Assembly (NCBI RefSeq): GCF_014635845.1 | Contig: NZ_BMDP01000003.1 | Coordinates: 310,001-374,000, forward strand | Reading direction: 5' to 3' | Source: Oxalicibacterium solurbis | GTDB lineage: Bacteria > Pseudomonadota > Gammaproteobacteria > Burkholderiales > Burkholderiaceae_D | DNA: 64,000 nt | In this document: one piece after another, positions 35,413 through 54,940 of the stretch | Numbering within the stretch: the first letter of the stretch is position 1 | Layout: each line of letters begins with the position of its first letter | Notes under the pieces: model-generated | What the model was told of the DNA's origin: nothing | What the model saw: the letters and a program-made list of their open reading frames with translations, nothing else | Databases searched by the model: none | Program-made: the position numbers and the translations under genes

Positions 35413-35502
35413 GGATTTTTCCTCCTGATAATCATAAATAAAAAGCTGTGTGCCGGGTGGTGACGCAGCCGTTGAAATTTGGCGATCTGTTACCGATCCA
35501 AA

Positions 35503-35730: not shown

Positions 35731-35754
35731 TGTTTATCCCTTGCTTGATGTTTA

Positions 35755-36585: not shown

Positions 36586-36606
36586 CACGCCATTCCTGCC
36601 CAGGTA

Positions 36607-39474
36607 TTACTTCGTTGCCGCAGCTTCGCGAGGAATGAGTTTGGAACTCGCAAAACTTTCCTGCTCGGCATTGAAACGCGTATACGCACGCTGCCATTCG
36701 GACGGCTGGCTGACTGGCGTGACCTGAACCGCAGTGACCTTGTATTCAGGGCAGTTGGTCGCCCAGTCGGACGAACTGGTCGTGATCACGTTCGCACCCG
36801 ATTCCGGGAAGTGGAACGTGGTGTACACGACGCCCGGCTGAATGCGATCGGTCACTTCGGCGCGCAGCACGGACTGGCCGGCACGCGACGTGATGCCAAC
36901 CCAGTCATCCTGCTTGATGCCGCGTTCCGCTGCGTCGTCCGGATGGATTTCCAGGCGGTCTTCGCTATGCCACATGTTGTTGAACGTACGACGGGTCTGA
37001 GCGCCGACGTTGTACTGCGACAGGATACGGCCGGTCGTCAGGATGAACGGGAAATCCTTGCTGGTGCGTTCACCCGAACCGTAGTACTTGGTCAGGATGA
37101 AACGACCCTTGCCGCGGACGAATTCGTCGATGTGCATCGTCGGCGTGCCTTCCGGCGCTTCGGCGTTGCATGGCCACTGGATGCTGCCACCCAGTTCGTC
37201 GATACGCTTGAAGCTGACGCCGGTAAAGGTCGGCGTCAACGCTGCAATCTCGTCCATGATTTCACGCGGATGCGTGTAATTCATCGGATAACCGAGCGCG
37301 TTCGACAGCATCTGCGTGACTTCCCAGTCGCCATAACCGGATTTCGGCGGCATCACTTTGCGCACGCGCGAGATACGGCGCTCTGCGTTGGTGAAGGTGC
37401 CGTCTTTTTCCAGGAACGACGAACCGGGCAGGAATACATGTGCGTACTTTGCGGTTTCGTTCAGGAAGATGTCCTGAACGATGATGCATTCCATTGCTTC
37501 CAGCGCAGCGGTAACGTGTTGCGTGTTCGGGTCGGACTGAACAATGTCTTCACCTTCGCAGTACAGGCCCATGAAGGTCCCTTCCATCGCTGCGTCGAAC
37601 ATGTTCGGAATACGTAGGCCTGGCTCCGGGTCCAGCTTGACGTTCCATGCTGCTTCGAATTCAGAGCGAGCAGTGGTGTCGGACACGTGGCGGTAGCCCG
37701 GCAATTCGTGCGGGAAGGAGCCCATGTCGCAGGAACCTTGCACGTTGTTCTGACCGCGCAACGGATTGACGCCGACGCCTTCACGACCGATGTTGCCGGT
37801 TGCCATCGCAAGGTTGGCGATGCCGATAACGGCCGTCGAGCCTTGTGCATGCTCGGTCACGCCCAGGCCGTAGTAGATCGAGCCGTTTTTCGCTTTGGCG
37901 TACAGACGTGCTGCACCGCGAATATCTCCAGCCGACACGCCAACGATCGGTGCCATTGCTTCCGGCGAGTTTTCCGGCAGCGAAACGAACTCCATCCATT
38001 CCTGGAAGGAATCCCATTCGCAGCGTTCGCGGATGAATTCTTCCTTGTACAGTTTTTCGGTAACGATCACGTGTGCCAGTGCATTGACGACACCGACGTT
38101 GCCGCCCGGTTTCAGCTTCAGGTGATAATCGGCCTTGATGTGCGCCGATTTGACCATTTCGGTTTCACGCGGATCGACCACAATCAGATTGGCGCCCTGA
38201 CGCAGGCGGCGTTTCATCATCGACGCAAACACCGGGTGACCGGAAGCCGGGTTGGCGCCGATGATCAGGATGCAGTCCGATTTCATCACGGACTCGAAAG
38301 TCTGCGTGCCGGCGGATTCGCCCATCGTGACTTTCAAGCCATAGCCGGTCGGCGAGTGGCAGACACGAGCGCAGGTATCGACGTTGTTGTTGCCGAATGC
38401 TGCACGCACCAGCTTCTGCACCAGATAGCCTTCTTCGTTCGTGCAGCGCGACGACACCAGGCCGCCGACGGAACCACGACCGTATTTGGCCTGGATGCGC
38501 TTGATTTCGGAAGCGGCGTAGTTGATCGCTTCTTCCCACGATACTTCCTGCCACGGATCCGAGATTTTCTTGCGGATCATCGGTTTCAGCATGCGGTCCT
38601 TGTGTGTTGCGTAACCCCATGCGAAACGACCCTTGACGCAGGCATGGCCCTGGTTGGCACCGCCGTCCGGGTTCGGGAGCATACGCACGACTTCGTTGCC
38701 CTTCATTTCGGCACGGAACGAGCAGCCCACGCCGCAGTATGCGCAGGTGGTGATCTTGCTGTGCTCGGCTTGGCCCATCATGATGACGGTCTTCTCGGTC
38801 AGCGTAGCGGTCGGGCAGGCATCGACGCAGGCGCCGCAGGAGACGCACTCGGAGTCGATGAAGTCTTCGTACTGGCTCGGCGACACGCGCGAATCGAAAC
38901 CGCGACTGTCGATCGTCAGGGCGAAAGTACCTTGCGTTTCTTCACAGGCACGTACGCAGCGATTGCAGACGATGCACTTGGAAGGATCGTAAGTGAAGTA
39001 CGGGTTGGATTCGTCCTTCTCCATCTTCAGATGGTTTTCACCGTCGTAGCCGTAGCGCACGTCGCGCAGGCCGACGACGCCGGCCATGTCCTGCAGTTCG
39101 CAGTTGCCGTTGGCCGGGCAGGTCAGGCAGTCCAGCGGGTGGTCGGAGATATACAGCTCCATGACGCCGCGGCGGATGTCTGCCAGTTTCGGGGTTTGCG
39201 TGCGCACCTTCATGCCGGCTTCGGCCGGTGTCGTGCACGATGCCGGGTAGCCACGGCGGCCGTCGATCTCGACCAGGCACAGGCGGCAGGAACCGAAGGA
39301 TTCCAGGCTTTCGGTTGCGCACAGTTTCGGCACGTTGATGCCGGCTTCTGCAGCTGCGCGCATGACGGAAGTACCTTGCGGCACGGAGATGGTTTTACCA
39401 TCAATTTCCAGCGTGACCAGATTTTCGGATGCGCGCTTCGGCGTACCGTAATCGATGCCATTCAATAAGTTCAT
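36607..39474 (-). CDS. fdsA: NAD-dependent formate dehydrogenase alpha subunit (Mo/W enzyme)
   Basis: 955 residues: an N-terminal 2Fe-2S ferredoxin part (CATESLESFGSCRLCLVEIDGRR), NuoG-like His/Cys cluster (DHPLDCLTCPANGNCEL), two 4Fe-4S clusters (CIVCNRCVRACEE, CVSCGACVDACPT), then a 4Fe-4S cluster (CAYCGVGCSF) and the bis-MGD domain with the metal-ligand Cys in DTCARVCHSPTGYGL. It oxidises formate to CO2. A Cys, not Sec, ligand is encoded. It follows fdsB by 40 bases. Confidence 0.96.
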   Translation of the reverse strand: MNLLNGIDYGTPKRASENLVTLEIDGKTISVPQGTSVMRAAAEAGINVPKLCATESLESFGSCRLCLVEIDGRRGYPASCTTPAEAGMKVRTQTPKLADIRRGVMELYISDHPLDCLTCPANGNCELQDMAGVVGLRDVRYGYDGENHLKMEKDESNPYFTYDPSKCIVCNRCVRACEETQGTFALTIDSRGFDSRVSPSQYEDFIDSECVSCGACVDACPTATLTEKTVIMMGQAEHSKITTCAYCGVGCSFRAEMKGNEVVRMLPNPDGGANQGHACVKGRFAWGYATHKDRMLKPMIRKKISDPWQEVSWEEAINYAASEIKRIQAKYGRGSVGGLVSSRCTNEEGYLVQKLVRAAFGNNNVDTCARVCHSPTGYGLKVTMGESAGTQTFESVMKSDCILIIGANPASGHPVFASMMKRRLRQGANLIVVDPRETEMVKSAHIKADYHLKLKPGGNVGVVNALAHVIVTEKLYKEEFIRERCEWDSFQEWMEFVSLPENSPEAMAPIVGVSAGDIRGAARLYAKAKNGSIYYGLGVTEHAQGSTAVIGIANLAMATGNIGREGVGVNPLRGQNNVQGSCDMGSFPHELPGYRHVSDTTARSEFEAAWNVKLDPEPGLRIPNMFDAAMEGTFMGLYCEGEDIVQSDPNTQHVTAALEAMECIIVQDIFLNETAKYAHVFLPGSSFLEKDGTFTNAERRISRVRKVMPPKSGYGDWEVTQMLSNALGYPMNYTHPREIMDEIAALTPTFTGVSFKRIDELGGSIQWPCNAEAPEGTPTMHIDEFVRGKGRFILTKYYGSGERTSKDFPFILTTGRILSQYNVGAQTRRTFNNMWHSEDRLEIHPDDAAERGIKQDDWVGITSRAGQSVLRAEVTDRIQPGVVYTTFHFPESGANVITTSSSDWATNCPEYKVTAVQVTPVSQPSEWQRAYTRFNAEQESFASSKLIPREAAATK

Positions 39475-39514
39475 GTTTCGCTCCAGTTAGCTTGCGTTGC
39501 GTTGGGCTACAGCA

Positions 39515-41080
39515 TTAAGCCGCATTCGCCATCGGCTGATCGCCGAAGTCTTCAGGGAAGTGATTCAGGGCCGACAACACCGGGAACGGCGTCATGCTGC
39601 CCATCGCGCACAGCGATCCGGTGACCATCACGTCGCACAGGTCGCGCAGCAGCTTGATTTGCTGCGGACGGTTCTGGTTGGCGATGATCTTGTCCATGAC
39701 TTCCACACCGCGGGTCGAGCCGATCCGGCACGGTGTGCATTTGCCGCACGATTCCGCCTTGCAGAAATGCATGGCGTAACGTGCCTGCTTGGCCATGTCG
39801 ACGGACTCGTCGAACGCGACCAGACCGCCGTGACCGACGGTGGAGTCGACGGCGGCAAACGCTTCATAATCGAACGGCGTGTCGAACAGCGATTCGGGCA
39901 TGTAGGCGCCCAACGGGCCGCCGACCTGCACGGCGCGGATCGGACGACCCGATTCCGAACCACCGCCGAAGTCGTATAGCAATTCACGCAGCGTCACGCC
40001 GAAAGCCTTCTCGACCAGGCCGCCGTATTTCAGGTTGCCGGCGAGTTGCATCGGCAATGTGCCGCGCGAACGTCCCATGCCGTAGTTCTTGTAGAACTCG
40101 GCGCCGCGCGACAGGATCAGCGGTACGGCCGACAACGAAATGACGTTGTTGATGACGGTCGGTTTGCCGAACAAGCCTTCCAGTGCAGGAAGCGGCGGCT
40201 TGGCGCGCACCATGCCGCGTTTGCCTTCGATACTTTCCAGCATCGCGGTTTCTTCGCCGCAGACATATGCACCGGCAGCCTTGCGCACTTCCAGATGGAA
40301 GGTGCGGCCGGAACCGAGGATGTTTTCACCGAGGTAACCTGCAGCCTTGGCGTTATCGATGGCTTCGTTCAGGTTGGCGATCGAGTGCGGATACTCGGAG
40401 CGCACATAGATATAACCCCGCGTCGCACCGACGGCGATGCCGGCAATCGTCATGCCTTCGATCAGCATGAACGGATCGTCTTCCATCACCATGCGGTCCG
40501 AGAACGTACCCGAATCGCCTTCGTCGGCGTTGCAGGCGATGTATTTCTGGTCAGCTTGCGCGCCCAGCACGGTTTTCCATTTGATGCCGGTCGGGAAAGC
40601 CGCACCGCCACGACCGCGCAGGCCGGAATCGGTCACTTCCTGCACGATGGCAGCCGGTTCCATGGCGATCGCTTTTTTCAGGCCGACATAACCCTCATGC
40701 GCCAGATAATCGTCCAGCGATACCGGATCGGTGATGCCGACACGGACGAACTGCAGGCGTTCCTGTTTTTTCAGGTAAGGAATTTCTTCGACCAGACCGA
40801 GCGCTTTCGGATGCGCTTGTTTGTCGATTTTGCCGGTATGGAAGCCCGCGTCGAACAGGCCGGCAACTTCATGCTCTTCGATCGGACCGAAACCGATACG
40901 ACCGGCGTCGGTCGCGACTTCGACCAGCGGTTCCAGCCAGAACATGCCGCGCGAACCGTTGCGCACGAGTTTGATATCGACGCTGCGTGCCTTTGCTTCC
41001 TTGGCAATGGCAGCGGCGGTTTCATTGGCGCCCAGCGCCAGCGCGTTGGAATCGCGCGGAACGTAAATAGTGATGGTCAT
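39515..41080 (-). CDS. fdsB: NAD-dependent formate dehydrogenase beta subunit
   Basis: 521 residues: an N-terminal thioredoxin-like part followed by a NuoF-like core with the NADH-binding GLRGRGGAAFPTGIKW, FMN site (ACNADEGDSGTFSDR) and a C-terminal 4Fe-4S cluster (CGKCTPCRIGSTRG). It passes electrons from FdsA clusters to NAD+. Its ATG overlaps the fdsG stop as ATGA. Confidence 0.96.
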   Translation of the reverse strand: MTITIYVPRDSNALALGANETAAAIAKEAKARSVDIKLVRNGSRGMFWLEPLVEVATDAGRIGFGPIEEHEVAGLFDAGFHTGKIDKQAHPKALGLVEEIPYLKKQERLQFVRVGITDPVSLDDYLAHEGYVGLKKAIAMEPAAIVQEVTDSGLRGRGGAAFPTGIKWKTVLGAQADQKYIACNADEGDSGTFSDRMVMEDDPFMLIEGMTIAGIAVGATRGYIYVRSEYPHSIANLNEAIDNAKAAGYLGENILGSGRTFHLEVRKAAGAYVCGEETAMLESIEGKRGMVRAKPPLPALEGLFGKPTVINNVISLSAVPLILSRGAEFYKNYGMGRSRGTLPMQLAGNLKYGGLVEKAFGVTLRELLYDFGGGSESGRPIRAVQVGGPLGAYMPESLFDTPFDYEAFAAVDSTVGHGGLVAFDESVDMAKQARYAMHFCKAESCGKCTPCRIGSTRGVEVMDKIIANQNRPQQIKLLRDLCDVMVTGSLCAMGSMTPFPVLSALNHFPEDFGDQPMANAA

Positions 41081-41556
41081 TGAACACCCCGCTTTGCCTG
41101 GACCAGGCGATTGAATTTTTCCTTCGAGACGCGTGCGTACAGGTCGTCATCGATCTGGATGGTCGGGCCGGTCGCGCATTGGCCGAGGCAGTACACCGTT
41201 TCCAGCGAGAATTTGCCGTCATCCGTGGTGCCGTGGAAATCGCAACCCAGCAACTCCTTCGCGTGCGAAGCCAGATCCTCGCAGCCGCGAGCCTGGCAGG
41301 CCTCGGCGCGGCAGATCTGCACGACGTGCTTGCCGGCCGGATGCTGGCGGAAGAAGTGATAATAAGTAATCACGCCATGCACTTCCGCACGGGAAATGTT
41401 CAGGCTGTCCGCGATAGACGGGACGGTGCTGGACGGGATATATCCGATAGCGGATTGGATATCGTGCAAAATCGGCAACAATGCACCAGGCATCTCCTTG
41501 CGCTGGGCGATGATGGACTCTACTGCGGCCATGTCGAATGTGTTTTGGGTGCTCAT
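41077..41556 (-). CDS. fdsG: NAD-dependent formate dehydrogenase gamma subunit
   Basis: 159 residues, NuoE-like, with the 2Fe-2S ligands in QICRAEACQARGCEDL and ETVYCLGQCATGPT. The ATG at 41556 has GTAGGAG eight bases before it; the longer frame to 41685 only extends into the promoter. It is the first gene of the fds operon, divergent from the regulator at 41800. Confidence 0.95.
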   Translation of the reverse strand: MSTQNTFDMAAVESIIAQRKEMPGALLPILHDIQSAIGYIPSSTVPSIADSLNISRAEVHGVITYYHFFRQHPAGKHVVQICRAEACQARGCEDLASHAKELLGCDFHGTTDDGKFSLETVYCLGQCATGPTIQIDDDLYARVSKEKFNRLVQAKRGVQ

Positions 41557-41656
41557 GAAGAGGCTCCTACCGACGACATCATTGGCAACACCTGCCGCGA
41601 AGTCGTGTAATGAAACGGGAACATACTGCTTCCTTGGTTTATAAAATTTGTCTTGT

Positions 41657-41680
41657 ATATATGCTTTTAATAGCATATAG
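41657..41680. promoter_or_regulatory. Inverted repeat in the fdsG/regulator divergent region
   Basis: TATATGC (41658-41664) and GCATATA (41673-41679) form an exact repeat with an 8-base spacer in a 243-bp divergent intergenic region. A related half-site (TTTTGCATATCC) occurs near 41750. A likely operator for the neighbouring regulator (inferred). Confidence 0.45.
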
Positions 41681-41799
41681 TTCAAAGGCGAACCTTTTCC
41701 AACGGCTGAAAGGTAGCACCCGAAAACCCTAGGTTCAATAGGCTATCTTTTGCATATCCGGGAAAGCGGCGTAAACGACACATAGGCTCCGTAGAACAT

Positions 41800-42927
41800 A
41801 TGTTCAAAGTCATCATCAATCCGCATTGGGAAATTTCGCACGACGGCGAAGCGTCGCTGGACACGGCGGTTTTGCTCGATTTGCTGATGGCGATCCAGAA
41901 AACGGGGTCGATTTCGAAGGCTGCGCGATTGGTTGGGCTGTCCTATCGATACTCGTGGGGCATGCTGCGCGATGTCGAACAACTGTTCGGCACGCCGCTA
42001 TTAAATACAGATCGTGGCCGTGGTACGACACTCACCCCGCTGGCGGAGAAACTGATCTGGGCCGACCGCCGTGTCCGTGCGCGCCTGTCGCCCACGCTCG
42101 AAAGTCTGGCGTCGGAACTGGAAAACGAGATCGGCAAGACGGTTGTCGGTAAATCCAAGCCTTTGCGGCTGGATGCCAGCCACGGTTTCGCCGTCGACGC
42201 CCTTCTGCATCAGTTGACCGAAGCCAACTTGCCGGTCGACCTGCGTTACCGCAACAGTACGGATGCGGTAGCTGCGTTATCGCGTAGCGAATGCGATCTC
42301 GCGGGTTTTCATGTGCCGTTGGGCGAATTCGAGAAAAAGGCGGTCGAGCGTTATGCGCAATGGCTGAACCCGCGCGAACACTGCCTGCTGCATCTGGCTG
42401 TGCGTACGCAAGGCATGTTCGTTTCGCCGGGTAATCCGAAGAAAGTCCAGACGTTGCAGGATCTGGCCCGGCCCGGCGTGCGTTTCGTCAACCGCCAGAT
42501 CGGTTCCGGCACGCGCATGCTGCTGGAACTGATGCTGGCCGGCGCCGGCATTTCGCCGTTCGATATCGAAGGCTATCAAAGCAACGAATTCACACACTCG
42601 GCTGTCGCGGCTTACATCGCCAGCGGCATGGCGGACGTCGGCGTTGGCGTGCAGACAGCAGCGCAGCGTTTTGGCCTGGACTTCATTCCGCTGGTGAAGG
42701 AACGTTATTTCATGGCGCTGCCGCTGTCGATGATGGACGACCCACTGATCCAGCACGTGATCGAAGTCGTGCAATCGGGTTATTTCCGCAAGGTGATTAA
42801 CGGACTGGCCGGCTATGAATCCGGTGATACGGGCAAGATATTGCTGCTGTCTGAAGCATTTGGCCAAGCGGCGATACGGCGCAATGTGCCGCCTTCTCCG
42901 ATTACTTCAGAATCGCAATTCCCTTGA
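41800..42927 (+). CDS. ModE-N/PBP-type regulator of formate dehydrogenase (FdsR-like)
   Basis: 375 residues: an N-terminal winged HTH (LLDLLMAIQKTGSISKAARLVGLSYRYSWGMLRDVEQLFGTPLL) of the ModE/LysR kind and a C-terminal PBP-like ligand domain (LRLDASHGFAVDALLHQL, NRQIGSGTRMLLELML). It is transcribed away from the fds operon, as FdsR is in related bacteria, where it controls fds expression. The ligand is not evident; the PBP domain class often senses molybdate-like or formate-linked signals (inferred). Confidence 0.82.
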   Translation: MFKVIINPHWEISHDGEASLDTAVLLDLLMAIQKTGSISKAARLVGLSYRYSWGMLRDVEQLFGTPLLNTDRGRGTTLTPLAEKLIWADRRVRARLSPTLESLASELENEIGKTVVGKSKPLRLDASHGFAVDALLHQLTEANLPVDLRYRNSTDAVAALSRSECDLAGFHVPLGEFEKKAVERYAQWLNPREHCLLHLAVRTQGMFVSPGNPKKVQTLQDLARPGVRFVNRQIGSGTRMLLELMLAGAGISPFDIEGYQSNEFTHSAVAAYIASGMADVGVGVQTAAQRFGLDFIPLVKERYFMALPLSMMDDPLIQHVIEVVQSGYFRKVINGLAGYESGDTGKILLLSEAFGQAAIRRNVPPSPITSESQFP

Positions 42928-43984
42928 TCTGCGCATAGACGCGATTGCCCGGCATCAGGTTCATCGTCGCGCACGATTTGCGCGTGATGCGGGCCAGCAG
43001 GCGCGTGCCGTTTGCATCGAGCCCCACCATCACCTGTCCCGGACTGTCTTCCGCCAGCTCGGTAACGGTCGTTTCTATGATGTTCAGGATGCTGGAATCG
43101 TACACGGGCACACGGCTCAAGCTGACGTCGCGCGCCTGAATCCGGATGCGAACCTGTCGTCCGATCGGCAGATCGAGTTGCGGTAATTGTAGATTGCCGC
43201 CGGAAAATTTCGCCTGCGTCAGGTGGAAAGCCGGATCGTGATTGACGACGGTCGCGGCCACCAGCGCTCCTGCATCCGTGCCATGCGCCACGCCAAGGTC
43301 CAGACGCGTCAGCAGTTCGTCGATTGGTCCGTTGGCGACGACGCGGCCAGCTTCGAGCAGGACCAGATGATCAGCCAGTCGTGCCACCTCGTCAGCCGAA
43401 TGGCTGACGTACAAAACCGGAATATCCAGTTCATCGTGCAGGCGTTCGAGATACGGCATGATTTCCGCCTTGCGGTGCGCATCCAGCGCGGCCAACGGTT
43501 CATCCATCAGCAGAATGCGTGGACTGGTTGCCAGCGCCCGCGCGATGCCGACGCGCTGACGTTCGCCGCCGGAGAGTTTGTCAGGTTTGCGCGCCAGCAG
43601 ATGGCCGATATCCAGCAGCTCGATCGCATGTTCGAGTGACACCTGCCGCTCCGCTGCCGGAATCCTGCGCATGCCGTATTCGAGATTGCGTTGCACGCTG
43701 AGATGCGCAAACAGGCTGGCTTCCTGAAAGACGTAACCGAGCGGCCGCTTCCAGGTTGGAATGAAAATATTGCTGGCATCGTCCTGCCATGTTTCTCCAT
43801 TCACCTGCAGAAATACGCGCGAGGCCGGCTCCAGCCCGGCGATCACGCGCAGGCAGGTGGTCTTGCCGGAACCGGAGGCGCCGAACAGCGCCGTGATGCC
43901 GCGTCCCGGCAAAGCCAGGTCGACATCGAGATGAAAGGCGCCGTAATCGACCTTGAAGCGCGCCAGGACTTGATCGTCTTTCAT
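42902..43984 (-). CDS. modC: Molybdate ABC transporter ATPase
   Basis: 360 residues. Walker A GASGSGKT, signature LSGGERQRVGIARAL, Walker B ILLMDEPLAALD, and a C-terminal TOBE/Mop domain (RIQARDVSLSRVP, ARITRKSCATMNLMPGN). It powers molybdate uptake with ModAB. Its ATG overlaps the modB stop as ATGA. A longer frame to 44566 runs through modB in another frame and is not used. The end overlaps the convergent 41800 regulator gene by 26 bases. Confidence 0.95.
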   Translation of the reverse strand: MKDDQVLARFKVDYGAFHLDVDLALPGRGITALFGASGSGKTTCLRVIAGLEPASRVFLQVNGETWQDDASNIFIPTWKRPLGYVFQEASLFAHLSVQRNLEYGMRRIPAAERQVSLEHAIELLDIGHLLARKPDKLSGGERQRVGIARALATSPRILLMDEPLAALDAHRKAEIMPYLERLHDELDIPVLYVSHSADEVARLADHLVLLEAGRVVANGPIDELLTRLDLGVAHGTDAGALVAATVVNHDPAFHLTQAKFSGGNLQLPQLDLPIGRQVRIRIQARDVSLSRVPVYDSSILNIIETTVTELAEDSPGQVMVGLDANGTRLLARITRKSCATMNLMPGNRVYAQIKGIAILK

Positions 43985-44658
43985 GAGTTCTTGCGGCGTC
44001 CTGTCGGGTTCAGCGTGTAGAGCGTGATCAGCACCAGCAGCGAGAACACCACCATGCCGGCGGCAAGCCAGTGCGCCTGCGCGTATTCCAGCGCTTCGAC
44101 GTGATCGTAGATTTGCACGGACACCAGCCGTGTCTTCTCGGGAATATTCCCGCCTATCATCAATACGACGCCGAATTCGCCAACCGTGTGCGCGAACCCC
44201 ATCACCGTCGCGGTCAGATAACCGGGGCGCGCCAGCGGCAGGATGACGCTGAAGAAGGTATCGAGCGGCGATGCGCGCAACGTCGCCGCGGCTTCCAGCG
44301 GACGCTCGCCGATTGCCTCGAAGGCATTCTGGATCGGCTGCACGACGAAAGGCATCGAATAGAGAACGGAGCCGACGACGAGGCCGGCAAAGGTGAAGGG
44401 CAGCGTGCCCAGACCGAGAACCTGGGTCAGCTTGCCGATCGGCCCGTTGGGGCCGAGCGTCACCAGAAGATAGAAACCGATCACGCTGGGCGGCAGCACC
44501 AGCGGCAATGCCACGAAGGCACCGATCGGGCCTTTCAGCCAGGAACGGGTGCGCGCCAGCCACCACGCCACCGGCGTGCCGATCAGCAGCAGGATCAGCG
44601 TGGTGAGCGCCGCCAGTTCCAGGGTAAGGACGACGGCGCTGATGTTCGGATCGGTCAA
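43981..44658 (-). CDS. modB: Molybdate ABC transporter permease
   Basis: 225 residues, five to six membrane helices with the EAA-like loop EAIGERPLEAAATLRASPLDTFFSVILPLARPG. It forms the inner-membrane channel for molybdate. Confidence 0.95.
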   Translation of the reverse strand: MTDPNISAVVLTLELAALTTLILLLIGTPVAWWLARTRSWLKGPIGAFVALPLVLPPSVIGFYLLVTLGPNGPIGKLTQVLGLGTLPFTFAGLVVGSVLYSMPFVVQPIQNAFEAIGERPLEAAATLRASPLDTFFSVILPLARPGYLTATVMGFAHTVGEFGVVLMIGGNIPEKTRLVSVQIYDHVEALEYAQAHWLAAGMVVFSLLVLITLYTLNPTGRRKNS

Positions 44659-44682
44659 GTGCAGAACTTCTTTGTCAGGGAA

Positions 44683-46264
<1,582 letters not shown>

Positions 46265-46342
46265 GACGGTCTTCTTTAGGTTTCTTTGTTCGGAAAACGA
46301 CGAAAGGCCTGTCCAGTCCAAGCGTGAGGTTGCTATCATACA

Positions 46343-46367
46343 CGATATTACTTTGAACGACATATTG
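46343..46367. promoter_or_regulatory. Possible ModE box
   Basis: CGATAT (46343-46348) and ATATTG (46362-46367) form an imperfect palindrome with the spacing of ModE sites, in the modE/LysR divergent region. Confidence 0.35.
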
Positions 46368-46471
46368 GCTGGCAGGGCAGACGATCATTCTAGTGAATAC
46401 GTGCCGCGAGAGGTGCTTGCAGCAGCCGGATGTCGGTTTTTATTACGGCATCGCCTTGAGGATGGAAAATC

Positions 46472-47386
46472 ATGTTCGTACGCCAACTCGACTATCTCGT
46501 CACGCTTGCCCGCGAGAAGCACTTCGCCCGCGCAGCTGAAATCTGCTGCGTCTCCCAGCCGGCCTTGTCGGCCGCGGTGCGCAATCTGGAAAACGAACTC
46601 GGCGTGGCCATCGTACAGCGCGGCCAGCGTTTTCAGGGATTCACGCCGGAAGGCGAACGCATTCTCGACTGGGCGCGCCAGACGCTGGCGGCGCTGGAAG
46701 GATTGAAACAGGAGGCATCGCTGTCGCGCGTGCGCCTGACCGGCACGCTGCGTTTCGGTGCGATCCCGACCACGATGCCCATCGTTTCATTGCTGACCGG
46801 GCCTTGCCGCATGCAGCATGCGAATCTGCAGCAACTGGTGCTGTCGCTGAGCTCGGAGGAAATAATGCGCCGGCTCGACGATTTCGAACTGGATGTCGGC
46901 CTGACGTATCTGGAGGACCAGCGGTTGAACGGCTTTCATGTCCAGCCGCTTTATCGCGAACGCTACATGCTGCTGGCGCGCGATCGTGCCGCGCTTGGCG
47001 AGCGGCGCGAGATCGACTGGAAGGCCGCGGCCGAACTGCCGATGTGTTTGTTGACGCCGGATATGCAGAATCGCCGCATTGTCGACGCCGCGTTCCGTCG
47101 TGCCGAGGTGCAATCCAACGTTGTCGTCGAGACCGATTCGGTGTTTGCACTGTATGCACAGGTGCGGCATGCGGAGCTGTACAGCGTCGTGCCGCACAGC
47201 CTGTTGTGCCTGTTCGAGCCCGGAGGGGAAATGGCGGCGATTCCGCTGGTGCCGGAGCTCAGTCGTTCCATCGGCCTGATTTCCCTGGCGCACGATCCCT
47301 GCTCGCCCATCGTCATCGCCGCGCGCAACATTGCCATGCAGATCGATCTGCAAACGCGATTCGATCGTTATCTGTCGCCGGCATGA
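46472..47386 (+). CDS. LysR-type transcriptional regulator
   Basis: 304 residues. HTH at residues 3-60 (VRQLDYLVTLAREKHFARAAEICCVSQPALSAAVRNLENELGVAIVQR) and an effector domain of the LysR type. It lies between modE (divergent) and the metal-independent formate dehydrogenase gene (same strand, 193 bases downstream), which it most likely controls (inferred). The GGATGGAAAATC before the ATG gives an adequate ribosome site. Confidence 0.9.
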   Translation: MFVRQLDYLVTLAREKHFARAAEICCVSQPALSAAVRNLENELGVAIVQRGQRFQGFTPEGERILDWARQTLAALEGLKQEASLSRVRLTGTLRFGAIPTTMPIVSLLTGPCRMQHANLQQLVLSLSSEEIMRRLDDFELDVGLTYLEDQRLNGFHVQPLYRERYMLLARDRAALGERREIDWKAAAELPMCLLTPDMQNRRIVDAAFRRAEVQSNVVVETDSVFALYAQVRHAELYSVVPHSLLCLFEPGGEMAAIPLVPELSRSIGLISLAHDPCSPIVIAARNIAMQIDLQTRFDRYLSPA

Positions 47387-47486
47387 CCGGCAGGATATAA
47401 ACAAGCAGGCATACAAACAGACAGACATAAGCGGCAGCTATCAGTCCATCACATCAAACGATTGGACCGTGACATTGCTTCATTCC

Positions 47487-47564
47487 TAAGATGAATTGGT
47501 TGGCATCGCCTGGGTGCCGGCATCGGCATTCCCGATTTCCCTGACGCAACAACAATTCATCTTA
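47487..47564 (+). repeat. 12-bp inverted repeat in the fdh leader
   Basis: TAAGATGAATTG (47487-47498) and CAATTCATCTTA (47553-47564) are exact inverted copies 54 bases apart; the second ends two bases before the GGAGA ribosome site of the fdh gene. It could be an mRNA structure or operator pair. Confidence 0.75.
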
Positions 47565-47579
47565 TGGAGAAGCCTCATC

Positions 47580-48785
47580 ATGGCCAAAGTTTTATGTGTG
47601 CTGTACGACGATCCTGTCACCGGTCACCCGACCTCTTATGCGCGCGATGAAGTCGCGCAACCTTCCATCTATCCGGACGGCCAGACCCTGCCGACGCCGA
47701 AAGCCATCGACTTCAAACCGGGCACCCTGCTCGGCAGCGTGTCGGGCGAACTCGGCCTGCGCAAATACCTGGAATCGAACGGCCATCAACTGGTCGTGAC
47801 CTCCAGCAAGGACGGTGCGGACAGCGTGCTCGATCGCGAACTGCACGACGCTGAAATAATCATCTCGCAACCGTTCTGGCCGGCTTACATGACGGCTGAA
47901 CGCATCGCCCGCGCGAAAAAGCTGAAGATGATCGTCACTGCCGGCATCGGTTCGGATCACACCGATCTGGAAGCAGCCAACAAGCACAACATCACCGTTG
48001 CCGAAGTCACCTATTGCAACAGCCACTCGGTGGCCGAGCACGTCCTGATGATGATCCTGTCGCAGGTGCGCAATTACATTCCGTCGTACAACTGGGTGGT
48101 CAAGGGCGGCTGGAACATCGCCGACTGCGTGTCGCGTTCCTACGATCTGGAAGCGATGAGCGTCGGTACCGTCGCTGCCGGCCGTATCGGCCTGCGCGTG
48201 CTGCGCCTGCTGAAACCGTTCGACGTCAAGCTGCACTACATGGATCGCCATCGCCTGCCGGAAGCAGTCGAGAAGGAACTGAACCTGACCTATCACAGCA
48301 ATCTGAAGAGCCTGGCTGCTGCCTGCGACGTGGTCACGCTGAACTGCCCACTGCACCCGGAAACGGAACACATGGTCAACGAAGAAACGCTGAAATACTT
48401 CAAGCGCGGCGCCTACATCATCAACACCGCACGCGGCAAGCTGTGCGATCGCGATGCAATCGTCAAAGCGCTGGAAAGCGGCCAGCTGGCCGGCTACGCA
48501 GGCGATGTCTGGTTCCCGCAACCGGCACCGGCCGATCATCCATGGCGCACGATGCCGCATCACGGCATGACGCCGCACATCTCCGGCACCAGCCTGACCG
48601 CGCAAGCGCGTTATGCCGCCGGCACGCGTGAAATCCTCGAGTGCTACTTCGAAGGTCGTCCGATCCGCGACGAATACCTGATCGTCCAGGGCGGCAAGCT
48701 GGCCGGCGTCGGCGCGCACTCGTACAGCGACGGCAACGCCACCGGCGGTTCCGAAGAAGCCGCGAAGTTCAAAGCGGTCAAGTAA
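47580..48785 (+). CDS. fdh: Metal-independent NAD-dependent formate dehydrogenase
   Basis: About 401 residues of the D-2-hydroxyacid dehydrogenase fold, like the methylotroph Pseudomonas enzyme. VGTVAAGRIGLRVLR is the NAD-binding glycine loop, LHYMDRHRLP supplies the Asp that selects NAD, and HISGTSLTAQARYAAGTREILECYF holds the catalytic His and the family tail. It oxidises formate to CO2 and makes NADH without metals. The ATG at 47580 follows GGAGA. Two formate dehydrogenases of unrelated types therefore lie 6 kb apart, with molybdate uptake genes between. Confidence 0.95.
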   Translation: MAKVLCVLYDDPVTGHPTSYARDEVAQPSIYPDGQTLPTPKAIDFKPGTLLGSVSGELGLRKYLESNGHQLVVTSSKDGADSVLDRELHDAEIIISQPFWPAYMTAERIARAKKLKMIVTAGIGSDHTDLEAANKHNITVAEVTYCNSHSVAEHVLMMILSQVRNYIPSYNWVVKGGWNIADCVSRSYDLEAMSVGTVAAGRIGLRVLRLLKPFDVKLHYMDRHRLPEAVEKELNLTYHSNLKSLAAACDVVTLNCPLHPETEHMVNEETLKYFKRGAYIINTARGKLCDRDAIVKALESGQLAGYAGDVWFPQPAPADHPWRTMPHHGMTPHISGTSLTAQARYAAGTREILECYFEGRPIRDEYLIVQGGKLAGVGAHSYSDGNATGGSEEAAKFKAVK

Positions 48786-48841
48786 TACGGCACCGGCATC
48801 GCCGTCGTTACCGGCTGCGGCGATCGCCGATGTTGGCTCGC

Positions 48842-48873
48842 ATGCCGACGCACTCCTGGGCGTCGGCATTTTT
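48842..48873 (+). terminator. Intrinsic terminator after fdh
   Basis: Perfect 10-bp stem (48842-48851 with 48860-48869), 8-base loop and T-run, 29 bases before the HPP gene start. Confidence 0.85.
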
Positions 48874-48901
48874 CATTCGGCAAAATACAAGTGGAATTCT
48901 C

Positions 48902-49435
48902 ATGACAACATTAGAACGGGATCACCTGTCCGATCCTCTTCCATCACCCGCTCCCGTCGCTTCGCACTTTCCGCCGCGGTCGGCATTCCGGCACGTGCTG
49001 CTGGCGGCGCTTGGCGGTTTTGTCGCGATCGCCGCCATTGCGCTGCTGGCCAGCAATTTCCATGCCGCGCTGATGCTGGGTTCGTTCGGCGCATCCTGCG
49101 TGCTGGTGTTCGGGTTTCCGGATGCGCCTTTTTCCCAGCCGCGCAATGTCGTCATCGGCCATACGCTGAGCAGCTTCGTCGGCCTGCTTTGCCTCACGCT
49201 GTTCGGACCGCACTGGTGGGCCGTGGCGCTGGCGGTCTCGCTGGCGATTGCCGCAATGATGCTGACGCGCACCGTGCATCCGCCGGCCGGTTCCAATCCG
49301 GTCATCATCTTCCTGGCGATGCCGCAGTGGGACTTCCTGTTGTTTCCGACATTGAGCGGCGCGCTCGTTCTCGCAACGATCGGCCTGCTGTACAACCGCG
49401 TGTTGCGCGGTCATGCCTATCCGAAATACTGGTAG
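48902..49435 (+). CDS. HPP family membrane protein
   Basis: 177 residues, four predicted membrane helices, with ALMLGSFGASCVLVFGFPDAPFSQPRNVVIGHTLSS and the signature HPPAGSNPVI toward the C-terminus. HPP proteins are linked to small-anion (nitrite) transport in some organisms; function here is unknown. It lies between the formate dehydrogenase and the OFA transporter, so a role with formate or another small anion is possible (inferred). Confidence 0.8.
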   Translation: MTTLERDHLSDPLPSPAPVASHFPPRSAFRHVLLAALGGFVAIAAIALLASNFHAALMLGSFGASCVLVFGFPDAPFSQPRNVVIGHTLSSFVGLLCLTLFGPHWWAVALAVSLAIAAMMLTRTVHPPAGSNPVIIFLAMPQWDFLLFPTLSGALVLATIGLLYNRVLRGHAYPKYW

Positions 49436-49526: not shown

Positions 49527-49559
49527 GACAATTTGTCGCGCATGCAGCGTCAAATTGTC
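49527..49559 (+). promoter_or_regulatory. Paired upstream activator sites
   Basis: GACAATTTGTC (49527-49537, exact palindrome) and GTCAAATTGTC (49549-49559, one mismatch) have centres 22 bp apart, two helical turns, on the same face about 85 bp upstream of a sigma-54 promoter. Each is followed by GCG. This is the usual arrangement for an NtrC-type activator dimer pair. Confidence 0.75.
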
Positions 49560-49624
49560 GCGTCATTGGGTAAGTGCACTGAGCCGGCCTCTTCTAAATC
49601 AACGACTTAGCGCGTGGCGCGTGC

Positions 49625-49640
49625 TGGCATGTCGATTGCC
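49625..49640 (+). promoter_or_regulatory. Sigma-54 (-24/-12) promoter for the MFS transporter
   Basis: TGGCATGTCGATTGCC has the required GG-N10-GC spacing and nearly the full consensus TGGCAC-N5-TTGC. It is 81 bases before the transporter start codon. Confidence 0.85.
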
Positions 49641-49720
49641 TTTGTGGGTCTCCAACGACGGAATGTTTCCGTCCGGCGCAGCGAACGCTGCGGTCGAAAA
49701 AATCAGAGGAGAGATTTCAC

Positions 49721-51106
49721 ATGCTCAAATTTTTTGCGAAAGAAAGAACGGTTGCCGGTCCGGGATTCAACCGTTGGATGGTGCCGCCGGCCGCATTGGC
49801 AGTCCATCTGTGTATCGGCCAGGCCTATGCATTCAGTGTGTTCAACGGCCCGCTGTCCAAGGCGATCGGCATTACCGAGTCGGCACCGGATGACTGGAAG
49901 CTGACGACCATCGGATGGATTTTCAGTCTGGCGATTTTCTTCCTCGGCTTGTCCGCCGCGTTCGGTGGTAAATGGCTGGAAAAGGTCGGGCCGCGCATGA
50001 CGATGTTTGTCGCGGCCTGCTGCTTCGGCGGCGGCTTCCTGATTTCGGCGATCGGCGTGGCGCTGCACCAGATCTGGTTGCTCTATCTCGGTTATGGCGT
50101 GATCGGCGGCATCGGCCTCGGTCTCGGCTACGTGTCGCCAGTCTCGACGCTGATCAAGTGGTTCCCGGATCGTCGCGGCATGGCGACCGGCCTGGCGATC
50201 ATGGGTTTCGGCGGTGGCGCGATGGTTGCTGCACCGCTGTCGGTATTCCTGATGAATACCTTCAAGACCGCCACCTCGGTTGGCGTGATTCAGACCTTCG
50301 TTGTGATGGGCGTCCTGTACTTCATCTCGATGGTGATCGGCGCGTTCACGATCCGTATTCCCGCAGAAGGCTGGCAGCCGAAGGGTTGGACGCCACCGGC
50401 GACGGAAAACCGCATGATCACGCGCAACCACGTGCATATCGACGAAGCGCTGAAGACGCCGCAGTTCTACCTGCTGTGGCTGGCGTTGTGCCTGAACGTG
50501 ACGGCCGGCATCGGCGTGCTGGGTCAGGCCTCGGTGATGATCCAGGAAACCTTCAAGGGCGGCGTGACGCCGGCTGCGGCTGCCGGTTTCGTCGGCCTGA
50601 TGAGCCTGTTCAACATGGGCGGCCGTTTCTTCTGGTCGTTCTCTTCCGACTATCTCGGACGCAAGAACACCTATTACGTCTTCTTCATCCTCGGCATCAT
50701 CCTGTACACGCTGGTTCCGCACACCGGCCAGACCGGCAGCGTCGCGCTGTTCGTGCTGTGCTATTGCGTGATCATCAGCATGTACGGCGGCGGCTTCTCG
50801 ACGATCCCGTCCTATCTGGCCGACATGTTCGGCACCAAGTATGTCGGTGGCATCCACGGTCGCCTGCTGACGGCCTGGGCGGCGGCCGGCATCTTCGGCC
50901 CGGTGCTGGTCAACTACATTCGCCAGTACCAGGTCGAGCATGGCGTGGACAAGGCTGCTTCGTACGAGGTGACGATGTATGTGATGGCTTGCCTGCTGGT
51001 GCTGGGCTTCATCTGCAACATGTTGGTCAAACCGGTGGATCGACGTCACCACATGAGCGAACAGCAACTGCGCAACGCCGAGCCGGATCTGGCTGGCGCG
51101 CATTAA
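49721..51106 (+). CDS. OFA-family MFS transporter (oxalate/formate antiporter type)
   Basis: 461 residues, twelve membrane helices, with GLGLGYVSPVSTLIKWFPDRRGMATGLAIMGFG, the OFA-family signature in the middle loop, and HMSEQQLRNAEPDLAGAH at the cytosolic end. OFA proteins exchange carboxylates such as oxalate and formate. The exact substrate is not shown; no oxalyl-CoA genes are in the window. GAGGAGAG is the ribosome site. The gene has a sigma-54 promoter with paired activator sites and is followed by a 46-residue partner and by the matching two-component genes. Confidence 0.88.
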   Translation: MLKFFAKERTVAGPGFNRWMVPPAALAVHLCIGQAYAFSVFNGPLSKAIGITESAPDDWKLTTIGWIFSLAIFFLGLSAAFGGKWLEKVGPRMTMFVAACCFGGGFLISAIGVALHQIWLLYLGYGVIGGIGLGLGYVSPVSTLIKWFPDRRGMATGLAIMGFGGGAMVAAPLSVFLMNTFKTATSVGVIQTFVVMGVLYFISMVIGAFTIRIPAEGWQPKGWTPPATENRMITRNHVHIDEALKTPQFYLLWLALCLNVTAGIGVLGQASVMIQETFKGGVTPAAAAGFVGLMSLFNMGGRFFWSFSSDYLGRKNTYYVFFILGIILYTLVPHTGQTGSVALFVLCYCVIISMYGGGFSTIPSYLADMFGTKYVGGIHGRLLTAWAAAGIFGPVLVNYIRQYQVEHGVDKAASYEVTMYVMACLLVLGFICNMLVKPVDRRHHMSEQQLRNAEPDLAGAH

Positions 51107-51152
51107 GTTCGAATCGACCGAAGCTATCGAACCTACTCCAAGGAGCATATTC

Positions 51153-51293
51153 ATGAATACGCATTACTCGACAACGGAAGAAGTCCGACCCACCAATCCG
51201 GTCCTCATGGTGATTTTCTGGCTGTACGTCGGTATTCCGCTTGTGTGGGGAGTATCGTCCACACTGCAGAAAGCGGCCGCGCTGTTCCAGTAA
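51153..51293 (+). CDS. MFS transporter small partner, single membrane helix
   Basis: 46 residues, too short to be found by a 60-residue cut-off. MNTHYSTTEEVRPTNPVLM is followed by the single helix VIFWLYVGIPLVWGVSSTLQKA. AAGGAG lies seven bases before the ATG. It sits 46 bases after the OFA transporter and before its terminator, so the two are co-transcribed; such small proteins accompany OFA transporters in related bacteria. Confidence 0.8.
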   Translation: MNTHYSTTEEVRPTNPVLMVIFWLYVGIPLVWGVSSTLQKAAALFQ

Positions 51294-51350
51294 GAACAGC
51301 CGTATCGCAGTAATATCTGACGATACATTCGGCGGTAACATCCGCAACAG

Positions 51351-51378
51351 GGCGAGAGGCATGCCTCTCGCCTTTTTT
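51351..51378 (+). terminator. Intrinsic terminator after the transporter pair
   Basis: Perfect 10-bp stem GGCGAGAGGC/GCCTCTCGCC with a 2-base gap followed by six T. Confidence 0.9.
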
Positions 51379-51480: not shown

Positions 51481-52899
51481 ATGAACGAATACTTGATGAG
51501 TGCTGCAATCACGACGGCCTCGAACGCCGACGAATCATTCACCGAAGCCTTTGGCGGCTGGCAGCATCGCTCCATCCTGATCGTCGATGACGAACCCGGC
51601 ATGCGCAGTTTTCTCAAGCGCACGCTGGCCAGCCGCTGCAGCCGTGTTGAAACGGCCGAATCGGTCGAGGATGCCGCCGTGCTGCTCGGCCAGCAGCACT
51701 TCGATCTGATCATTCTCGACAATTCATTGCCCGGAAAATCGGGCGTGGACTGGCTGCATGAAATCCGCGCGCGCGGGCTGTACAACGACGTCGTATTGAT
51801 CACCGCCTTCGCCGATCTCGATATCGCCATCCGCGCATTGCGCGCCGGCGCCGCTGATTTTCTGCTGAAGCCTTTCCGCGTGAACCAAATCCTGAGCGCG
51901 ATCGGTCGCTGCTTCGATCGTGCACACCTGCGCCGCGAAAACTTCGTGCTGCGCCGCGAGCTGGACCAGCATGCCGATCTGGCCGGCGCGGACGGACTGA
52001 TCGGCCAGTCGGCGGCGCTGCAGCCGATCCACGATGCGATCGAGCGGCTGGCATCGGTACCGAGCACCGTGCTGATCACCGGCGAATCCGGCACCGGCAA
52101 GGAAGTCGCGGCACGCGCGATGCATTTCCTCAGCAATCGTTCGCGCAATCACTTCGTACCGATCAACTGTGGCGCGGTGCCGCCGGACATCATCGAGAGC
52201 GAACTGTTCGGCCACGTAAAAGGCGCGTTCAGCGGCGCGGCTTCGTCGCGTGAAGGCCTGTTCTTCTATGCGCAAGGCGGCACCTTGTTCCTCGACGAAG
52301 TCGGCGAACTGCCGATGGCGATGCAGGTCAAGCTGCTGCGTGCGCTGGAAGAAAAGAAAATCCGGCCGGTCGGCGCCGATCGCGAGATTCCGGTGGATGT
52401 GCGCGTCATTGCCGCGACCAATCGTAATGTCGAGCTGGAAGTGGCGGAAGGCCGCTTCCGTGAGGATCTCTATTACCGACTCAATGTCGTGCAACTGCAG
52501 ATGCCGCCGTTGCGCGATCGTCTCGAAGACATTCCGGCGCTGGCTGCCAGCTTCGTGCGGCAGCTGGCGCAACAGCTCGGGGTGCCGCCGCGCCCACTGG
52601 ACGACAAGGTGCTGGCATCGATGGCAGCCTATTCGTGGCCGGGCAATGTGCGCGAACTGCGCAATCTGGTCGAGCGCTGGCTGATCCTCGGCAATCTGCC
52701 GGATGCCGTATTCGGCAATCGCATGGCGATCAATGTGGCAGACCGCGCAGCGGATGGCGAAGTGTCGCTGGAAGCGATCGAGAAGCAGCACATCCTGAAG
52801 ATACTTGCCGAAAGCGGGGGCAACAAGACCGAAGCCAGCCGCCGTCTTGGCGTGTCGCGCAAGACGCTGGAACGCAAGTGTGCCGAATGGGGCGTCTGA
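51481..52899 (+). CDS. Sigma-54-dependent response regulator (NtrC family)
   Basis: 472 residues: receiver domain (Asp36, Asp37, phospho-acceptor Asp80 in [12 protein letters not shown], Lys in LLKPFR), AAA+ domain with Walker A GESGTGKE, Walker [14 protein letters not shown], and a C-terminal Fis-type HTH ([16 protein letters not shown]). The sigma-54 contact loop reads GAFSGA (residues 248-253) instead of GAFTGA. It is followed by its sensor kinase and lies just after the sigma-54-controlled transporter, which is the natural target (inferred). A second in-frame ATG at 51496 could be the start. Confidence 0.93.
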
Positions 52900-52912: not shown

Positions 52913-54940
52913 ATGCGCCGCTTCATGCAATGGGGGATGACACTGCGCATTCTCGGTAACGCATCGGTGCGTACCAAGTTGTTGCTGGTGACGCTGGTAC
53001 CGTTCCTCACGGTTCTCCCCATCCTGTTTTTCCTGATCTTTTACTGGGGTGTCGGCTATTACGATCGATTACTGACGTTCAAGGTCAGCAGCGATCTGGC
53101 GGTGGCGCACGAATATTTCCTGCATGTGCGCGATCGCGTCGGCCTCGACGTTTCCAGTCTGGGCAATTCGCATCCGCTGGTGAAAACGATCGAGGACGGC
53201 AGCAATGCGACCATCCAGCAGCTGCTGGCGGAGCGGCAGATTGCGCTTGGTCTCGATTTTCTGAATTTCCTCGATACCGAAGGCCACTTGCGCGTGTCGA
53301 CGGTAGCGCTCGGCACGCTCGACAATTCGCATTGGCCGATCGTGCAATCGGCGCTGCAGGGCAATGCCAGCAACGACATCGATATCTATACGGAAGCGCA
53401 GCTACGCCGGCTCGACGCACACATGGCGCAACAGGCACATCTGGAACTGGTCGATACGCCGAATGCGACGCCGACCACCAAGACGGCCGAAACCAGCGGC
53501 ATGGTGATCCACGCCGCCACACCGATCTATGACGGCGAAGGTCGCATGCTCGGCGTGCTAGAAGGCGGCGTGCTACTGAACCAGAACCTGCCTTTCGTCG
53601 ATACCATCAACAGCCTCGTCTATGCGGAAGGCTCGCTGCCGGAAGGCAGCGCCGGCACCGCCACGCTGTTCATCGACGACGTGCGCATTGCCACCAATGT
53701 GCGACTGTTCGGCAATCGCCGTGCGCTTGGCACGCGTGCCTCGCAGGTGGTGCGCAATCACGTGCTCAATGACGGCAAGACCTGGCTCGACAGCGCCTTT
53801 GTCGTGCATGACTGGTATATCTCCGCTTACGAACCGATTTCCGACAGTTTCGGACGGCGTGTCGGCATGTTGTATGTCGGCTATCTGGAAGCGCCCTTCC
53901 GCAAGGCCAAGGAAACCGCGTTCTATCTATTGGCGGCATTGTTTGCGGTAATCGGCATGGGTGGCGTGTATTTTTCGTTGCGTGTGGCGCGCGGCATCTA
54001 CGCGCCGCTGGCGGCGATGAACCGGACGATGACGGCGGTCGAAATGGGCGACATGGATGCGCGCAGCGGCGGTACGCCATCCCGCGACGAACTGGGTAGC
54101 CTGTCGCGACACCTGGATGAATTGCTCGATACCGTGCAGGCGCAGAATCACGAGCTGAAAACCTGGGGCGAACAACTGGATCGCAAGGTGGTCGAGCGCA
54201 CGATGGAACTGGAAGCGACCAATAAGTTGCTGGTGCAGGCGCAGCAGCAGCTTGTACTGGCGGAGAAGCTAGCCGCCATCGGCGAGATCACCGCCGGTGT
54301 TGCGCATGAGATCAACAATCCGGTCGCCGTATTGCAAGGCAATCTCGATGTGCTGCGCGATACGTTGGGCCAGGCAGCGGCGCCGGTGCAGGGCGAATTG
54401 AAGCTGATGGACCAGCAGATTCAGCGCGTCAATACTATCGTCACCAAGCTGCTGCAGTTCGCTAATCCGGGCGAATTCGCCGGCTATGTGGAAGCGATCA
54501 TGGTGGACGACGTGGTCACGGATTCGCTGGTGCTGGTGCGTCATCTGCTGAACCAGTGCGACATTCGCGTCGAACATCGCAAGGGCGCGACGATGGCGGT
54601 ACCGATCAATCGCGGCGAACTGCAGCAGGTGCTGATCAATCTGTTCACCAATGCCATTCATGCGATGAAGAACGGCGGCAGCCTGACGATCGAGACTGCG
54701 GACTGGTACGGTGAAAACGATACCAGCGGCGTCGACATTCGTGTGGCCGATACTGGTGCCGGCATTCGGCGCGAAGATTTGCCGCGTGTGTTCGATGCCT
54801 TCTTCACGACCAAGCGCCAGGGCGGCACCGGCCTTGGGCTGTCGATCAGTTACACGCTGGTGGCACGTTATGGCGGCACGATTCTGGTCCAGAGCGAGGA
54901 AGACTCAGGTACCGAGTTCACCGTGCATCTATTGGCCTGA
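52913..54940 (+). CDS. Membrane sensor histidine kinase
   Basis: 675 residues. A first membrane helix (about 19-45), a large periplasmic Cache-like sensing region, a second helix near 340-360, HAMP (GIYAPLAAMNRTMTAVEMGDMDARSGG), a coiled coil, HisKA with His465 in GVAHEINNPVAVLQGN, and HATPase (NLFTNAIHAMKNGG, DTGAGI, GTGLGLSI). The start at 52913 is 13 bases after the regulator stop; a longer frame from 52805 runs inside the regulator gene. The signal is probably a small carboxylate, given the neighbouring transporter (inferred). Confidence 0.92.
   Translation: MRRFMQWGMTLRILGNASVRTKLLLVTLVPFLTVLPILFFLIFYWGVGYYDRLLTFKVSSDLAVAHEYFLHVRDRVGLDVSSLGNSHPLVKTIEDGSNATIQQLLAERQIALGLDFLNFLDTEGHLRVSTVALGTLDNSHWPIVQSALQGNASNDIDIYTEAQLRRLDAHMAQQAHLELVDTPNATPTTKTAETSGMVIHAATPIYDGEGRMLGVLEGGVLLNQNLPFVDTINSLVYAEGSLPEGSAGTATLFIDDVRIATNVRLFGNRRALGTRASQVVRNHVLNDGKTWLDSAFVVHDWYISAYEPISDSFGRRVGMLYVGYLEAPFRKAKETAFYLLAALFAVIGMGGVYFSLRVARGIYAPLAAMNRTMTAVEMGDMDARSGGTPSRDELGSLSRHLDELLDTVQAQNHELKTWGEQLDRKVVERTMELEATNKLLVQAQQQLVLAEKLAAIGEITAGVAHEINNPVAVLQGNLDVLRDTLGQAAAPVQGELKLMDQQIQRVNTIVTKLLQFANPGEFAGYVEAIMVDDVVTDSLVLVRHLLNQCDIRVEHRKGATMAVPINRGELQQVLINLFTNAIHAMKNGGSLTIETADWYGENDTSGVDIRVADTGAGIRREDLPRVFDAFFTTKRQGGTGLGLSISYTLVARYGGTILVQSEEDSGTEFTVHLLA

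Follow-up and report, generated by a model that had tools for sequence, protein, structure and literature searches.

The question that this locus raises is which signal and which substrate belong to a transporter gene that is preceded by a sigma-54-type promoter and followed by a very short gene and the two genes of a two-component system. It lies in the window, i.e., the whole 64,000-nucleotide stretch of Oxalicibacterium solurbis DNA that was analysed. We consider it fairly probable that a formate-responsive two-component system drives the sigma-54-dependent transcription of a two-gene transporter operon and that the transporter imports formate or a similar monocarboxylate, formate being the most likely signal. 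The original prediction had described a complete carboxylate-sensing uptake circuit; its parts were found to be conserved as a unit, and the genome context narrowed the carboxylate to formate as the most likely candidate.

Two palindromes can be read from the sequence upstream of the transporter gene: GACAATTTGTC (49527-49537), which is a perfect copy of GACA-N3-TGTC, and, downstream of it, GTCAAATTGTC (49549-49559), which has one mismatch. Their starts are 22 bp apart and both are predicted to bind an activator. They are followed on the forward strand by the -24/-12 promoter TGGCATGTCGATTGCC (49625-49640), which agrees with TGGCAYG-N4-TTGC and has its GG and GC in register, 12 bp from one to the other, and from which transcription would be expected to start near 49651. 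Both the promoter and the paired sites were found exactly where the original prediction had placed them. The promoter alone is not exceptional, because a scan of both strands of the 64-kb window with a consensus matrix of hand-set weights revealed two sites that reach its score, itself included. The promoter together with the paired palindromes occurs a single time in the window. In the 3.04-Mb genome, a count that was restricted to pairs at exactly the 22-bp spacing with up to three mismatches gave one other match, which has three mismatches, and therefore the pair looks dedicated to one promoter. An rpoN gene is present in the same genome.

The first gene behind this promoter (49721-51106, + strand, from the ATG to the end of the stop codon) encodes a 461-aa OFA/SfMCT-type MFS transporter, which scored above the curated cut-off of NCBIfam NF049980 (SfMCT family, "L-lactate MFS transporter"; 358.3 bits, cut-off 320). 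The second is a 46-codon open reading frame (51153-51293, + strand) with AAGGAG upstream, which encodes a one-helix protein, and both genes are as they had been foreseen. Behind them lies a sequence with a strong hairpin and a T run that resembles an intrinsic terminator (51349-51378, + strand; hairpin 51349-51374, -19.7 kcal/mol, z -4.1), and a similar hairpin was present in three of the four Herminiimonas loci that were examined. Because this hairpin separates the small gene from the response regulator gene, the transporter and the small gene probably share one transcript while the regulator genes form another. It had been proposed that the regulator and a Cache kinase follow the transporter directly; they are indeed adjacent and in the expected places, but the intervening hairpin speaks against a continuous transcript. 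The NtrC-type response regulator (51481-52899, + strand) consists of a receiver domain with its Asp in LIILDNS, a sigma-54 AAA+ domain and a Fis-type HTH, all of which exceeded their Pfam cut-offs (Response_reg 90.7, Sigma54_activat 230.1 and HTH_8 49.3 bits). Its loop reads GAFSGA and not the usual GAFTGA, which is also the case in the four Herminiimonas loci and in L088 (besides the window, the set comprises L006, L007, L008, L013 and L088), whereas the linked regulators of Cupriavidus and of the alphaproteobacteria carry GAFTGA. The sensor histidine kinase (52913-54940, + strand) has two predicted periplasmic Cache modules (Pfam sCache_3_3, 97.6 bits), HAMP, HisKA and HATPase.

The conservation of this arrangement was analysed in 61 OFA transporter loci, which were collected by scanning genome contigs for the transporter. 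A regulator and a kinase were found within the fetched stretch in 25 of them, downstream of the transporter in Herminiimonas, divergent from it in Cupriavidus and upstream of it in the Rhizobiaceae and Rhodobacteraceae types. The pattern that was scored comprised two GACA-N3-TGTC sites with at most two mismatches together, approximately two or three helical turns apart, and a sigma-54-like site 15-140 bp downstream of them, its tolerances having been fixed after the 25 kinase-linked upstream regions had been viewed. It was present before the transporter in all 25 scorable kinase-linked loci and in none of the 31 unlinked ones, these counts being drawn from related loci, which are not independent events. 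Five further loci (L017, L051, L061, L062 and L064) were left out of this promoter test as their upstream sequence was missing or short. Elsewhere in the loci, 1.6 Mb of sequence when both strands are counted, there was one stray match. With the window added, the pattern occurred in 26 of 26 kinase-linked upstream regions and in none of 2,600 dinucleotide shuffles of these same regions, and chance palindromes were rejected on this basis. The spacing between the palindromes was 21-23 or 32-33 bp across the loci, and their distance from the -24 element was 52-55 or 65-68 bp, two values that are roughly one helical turn apart. The unit of sigma-54 promoter, paired sites, transporter with its one-helix partner, regulator and kinase is conserved across alpha- and betaproteobacterial genomes and, as in systems of the DctBD type, the paired upstream sites, the binding of which is predicted, are tied to a linked regulator.

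The surroundings of the operon point to formate. Judging from its gene content, the part of the window from 34600 to 49435 is a formate-oxidation island with genes for a TupA-like protein (below its cut-off), FdhD, FdsA, FdsB, FdsG, ModA, ModB, ModE, a LysR-type regulator, an NAD-dependent formate dehydrogenase and an HPP-family protein. The genes of an Fds-type NAD-linked molybdenum/tungsten formate dehydrogenase (35755-41676, - strand) comprise FdhD (241.7 bits), FdsA (TIGR01591, 913.8 bits) and the gamma subunit FdsG (229 bits), all above their cut-offs, as well as the NuoF-like FdsB, which was assigned by the NuoF family only (430.6 bits, below the cut-off of 558.65). Closer to the transporter and on the + strand, a LysR-type regulator (46472-47386; Pfam LysR_substrate and HTH_1) precedes an NAD-dependent formate dehydrogenase of the metal-free type (47574-48785; PRK07574, 699.8 bits, cut-off 329), and the membrane protein of the HPP family (48902-49435; Pfam TM_HPP, 169.3 bits) is encoded between this dehydrogenase and the transporter. 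Within the island, a 75-codon open reading frame beside FdhD (35503-35730) occupies the position of FdsD, a reading that comes from its position only; it had no NCBIfam match at E 1e-10. The stretch 41800-42927 combines a ModE-like N-terminal domain with a domain similar to the periplasmic-binding-like terminus of a protein for molybdopterin biosynthesis.

When 399 genomes of the order were searched with the kinase sensor, 27 of them contained matches with E values no higher than 1e-30. Apart from the window's own locus, these amounted to 29 related loci in 26 genomes, and the surroundings of all of them were fetched; 17 loci around distant kinase hits served as controls. Using fixed queries, a formate-dehydrogenase-type gene was found in 13 of the related loci and MoaE alone in five more; hence formate-dehydrogenase or molybdopterin genes lay near the kinase/regulator pair in 18 of 29 related loci compared to one of 17 controls, and in the remaining 11 related loci neither was found with these queries. 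Several of the loci that the analysis covered are short contigs (e.g., L124, L191, L200 and L204). In 11 loci, the pair directly adjoins dehydrogenase genes, eight of which are of the formate dehydrogenase N and three of the FDH3 type. The same DNA code, i.e., a GACA pair with a sigma-54 site, precedes the dehydrogenase operon in eight of these 11 loci (L164, L165, L166, L167, L169, L173, L176 and L177), in a scan that also accepted palindrome spacings of 42-45 bp. The enzyme assignments were confirmed by NCBIfam in the loci that were tested: against a cut-off of 814.2, the alpha subunit of formate dehydrogenase N scored 1513.5 bits in one locus and 1519.3 bits in another, both with read-through of TGA, and its larger piece in a third locus scored 1187.2 bits, and the FDH3 beta subunit reached 341.6 and 336 bits (cut-off 240). 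Elsewhere in the set, L154 has MoeA above and a TupA-like protein below the cut-off, L153 has a selenate-type binding protein and the dehydrogenase of L155 is located several kb away from the pair. Among the 61 OFA loci, an FdsA-type gene was present within the fetched stretch in 25, and no formate dehydrogenase was found in the fetched stretches of the other 36, some of which were short. Eight loci with FdsA-type genes were tested against NCBIfam; six passed TIGR01591, the partial reading frame of L019 failed and the gene of L042 was of the FdhF/YdeP type.

The sensor domain itself says less about the ligand. For the kinase, an AlphaFold2 model that covers residues 1-348 (mean pLDDT 85.7, pTM 0.79) suggests a pair of Cache modules flanked by a membrane helix on either side, a topology that was read from the helix list of the model. 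Only two PDB sequences were matched at E up to 1, 8py0 (E 0.017) and 8py1 (E 0.026), both of which are chemoreceptor domains with titles that include "in complex with formate". In the alignments, both share Arg258, Thr261 and Thr274 of the kinase (R-x2-T-x12-T, codons within 53684-53734, + strand), which match Arg142, Thr145 and Thr158 of PacF. According to passages of PMC12501870, these residues of PacF affect formate binding, and passages of PMC12415202 report formate as the ligand of an sCache_3_3 domain with the same Arg, Thr and Thr. The motif was found in 24 of the 29 related kinase loci but also in 13 of the 17 controls and, being a general feature of Cache_3 domains, constitutes weak evidence for formate; as proof of formate sensing it was rejected, and because of the controls, we rated the formate reading lower. 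Of the five related loci without the exact motif, L165, L166 and L176 have Ser in place of the last Thr and their kinases adjoin formate dehydrogenase N genes, and the regular expression found no true motif in L163. In the structural comparison, the best matches of the sensor model, which differed by about 2 Z units at most, were Cache sensors with diverse ligands; the dicarboxylate sensor DctB (Z 16.3), among others, scored as high as the formate receptors (Z 15.5 and Z 15.2), and pyruvate-bound KinD reached Z 14.0. Moreover, PacF binds formate in its distal module, as described in passages of PMC12501870, whereas the motif of the window kinase sits in the membrane-proximal module of the model. 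The sensor sequence is therefore compatible with formate, and it is the genome context that carries the argument.

It is also conceivable that the circuit serves another monocarboxylate, such as lactate or pyruvate, and that the formate genes are mere neighbours, a reading that we regard as rather unlikely. It would agree with the name of NF049980, with the solved relative SfMCT being called an L-lactate transporter and with a kinase that is equally close in fold to sensors of other acids and shares with the formate receptors a residue motif that is general. However, many genomes have genes for formate dehydrogenase or molybdopterin beside an orthologous kinase/regulator pair, the dehydrogenase being preceded by the same DNA code, and FdsA-type genes recur around the OFA transporters. 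An oxalate:formate antiporter such as OxlT appears the least probable of the readings weighed here and is very unlikely. Like SfMCT (6g9x and 6hcl) and OxlT (8hpj and 8hpk), the window transporter belongs to the 12-helix MFS family (116.6 and 100.1 bits, respectively), and the model of a naturally fused relative, L039, matched OxlT with Z 39.1 and an rmsd of 2.2 over 382 residues and SfMCT with Z 37.6-38.1. Passages of PMC10070484 state that Lys355 of OxlT holds the second carboxylate of oxalate and that both Arg272 and Lys355 are conserved in the OFA family. In the alignment, the equivalent of Arg272 is kept as Arg302, but the position of Lys355 is occupied by Trp386, and 37 relatives without exception have a Trp in this column (W417 in L039). 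The substitution favours a monocarboxylate; OxlT-type oxalate exchange was rejected on its account and the protein was not classed as an oxalate:formate antiporter, the scores for the oxalate/formate models also being below their cut-offs (TIGR00890, 181.9 of 374.85; TIGR04259, 147 of 335). Since the sequence gives no direction and an inducible export pump would also fit control by formate, the transporter might instead export formate or formic acid as a means of protection. We consider this improbable, as the linkage to formate-oxidising enzymes, both in the window and in its relatives, fits import for use, although it indicates direction by inference only.

The small protein had been thought to escape notice, which was not borne out, because it already belongs to NCBIfam NF047966 (54.8 bits, cut-off 24), named MFS_OXA_tail_dom or "MFS transporter small subunit"; its residues 16-46 match positions 1-31 of 31, no difference in sequence sets it apart from the family, and a new small-protein family was consequently rejected. 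Of 150 genomes of the order, 42 contain the family, as opposed to none of 14 control genomes. A profile that was built from 22 sequences, which were themselves among those counted or the window's own, showed that 42 of the 61 OFA loci encode this 13th helix as part of the transporter and 18 by a separate gene, and it was not found in one (threshold 15; L053 passes at 15.9 bits). In the loci listed, the separate genes begin 3-48 nt past the transporter and have start codons and mostly ribosome-binding-like sequences. Because the helix is covalently joined to the transporter in most relatives, the small protein is probably a structural or stability subunit. That the reading frame is instead a leader, a regulatory peptide or an unused remnant has, in our view, a slim chance: the phrase "MFS transporter small subunit" was absent from the open-access literature that was searched, but neither the retention of the helix in both its separate and its fused form nor the translation signals and the distribution of NF047966 in the order would be expected of such an element. 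A query combining the small subunit with SfMCT or OFA gave unrelated papers, so that the role of NF047966 is a name only in the literature searched, and a PDB search with the small protein yielded one chance-level match. The L039 model consists of a 12-helix MFS core and a final helix that was predicted with confidence (residues 511-540, mean pLDDT 87.4), and the structural comparison covered residues 14-474; the 13th helix, whether fused or separate, is thus outside the aligned ranges of the SfMCT and OxlT structures. Human MCT1 and MCT2 with basigin or embigin were among the further structural matches of L039, which by analogy suggests a similar partner role for the helix. The single locus without a detectable 13th helix, either fused or behind the gene, is that of the Enhygromyxa relative (L065), the transporter of which has two long insertions.

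Under the formate reading, the kinase would use its periplasmic Cache modules to sense a signal outside the cell, most likely formate, and would phosphorylate the NtrC-type regulator. An oligomer of the regulator may then bind the two palindromes, which lie some 65 bp ahead of the -24 element, and reach RNA polymerase-sigma-54 at the promoter by looping, which would open it. The resulting transcript would run through the transporter gene and the small gene as far as the hairpin that begins at 51349, and the 13th transmembrane helix would come from the small protein. Import of formate, or of a similar monocarboxylate, by the transporter may then supply the formate dehydrogenases that are encoded just upstream. 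A broader proposal, which is possible but tentative, is that of a formate-dedicated sigma-54 two-component system, the paired GACA-N3-TGTC sites of which control either formate dehydrogenase or a formate-dedicated OFA transporter, depending on the Burkholderiales-type bacterium; in this proposal, the transporter would need its detachable helix, a bacterial counterpart of basigin and embigin.

A Cache kinase and an NtrC-type regulator with a sigma-54-dependent transporter operon are a well-known kind of circuit. The DctB/DctD circuits, the transporter of which is the DctA-type carrier, follow the same logic of a periplasmic Cache sensor, a sigma-54 activator, paired upstream sites and the inducible uptake of an organic acid, and the sensor model is close to Vibrio cholerae DctB (3by9; rmsd 4.3 over 216 residues). 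The window differs from them in having an OFA/SfMCT-type MFS transporter with a one-helix partner, GACA-N3-TGTC sites and a context of formate rather than C4-dicarboxylates. The formate-sensing Cache receptors 8py0, 8py1, PacF and Atu0526 share the non-specific R-x2-T-x12-T motif but are chemoreceptors, whereas the sensor in the window belongs to a histidine kinase, for which two Cache modules are predicted. Formate-inducible regulation was also described, in passages of PMC7057948, for FdsR of Cupriavidus necator, a formate-responsive regulator of the LysR type. A LysR gene is likewise present upstream of the NAD-dependent dehydrogenase in the window; however, FdsR is a one-component cytoplasmic regulator that does not act with sigma-54, unlike the circuit proposed here. 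The search of one open-access library found no title on this system among those listed for formate two-component systems, no paper on this kind of transporter with sigma-54 and a response regulator, none on formate uptake by an MFS protein in Cupriavidus together with oxalate and no published account of this circuit. What appears to be new is the probable formate signal, the conserved site code and the naturally split or fused transporter. If the formate reading is true, the locus provides a candidate inducible formate importer for formate users, including the relatives of Cupriavidus necator in C1 biotechnology, as well as a sensor for formate outside the cell, the promoter code of which is mapped and which could possibly serve as a formate biosensor; for this clade, the family name "L-lactate transporter" would then be potentially misleading. 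That fused and split transporters both occur naturally also makes the role of the one-helix subunit directly testable. It is worth mentioning that two Neisseria gonorrhoeae records in a plasmid collection, which are chromosome-sized (2.17 Mb), encode a transporter that is 62-63% identical.
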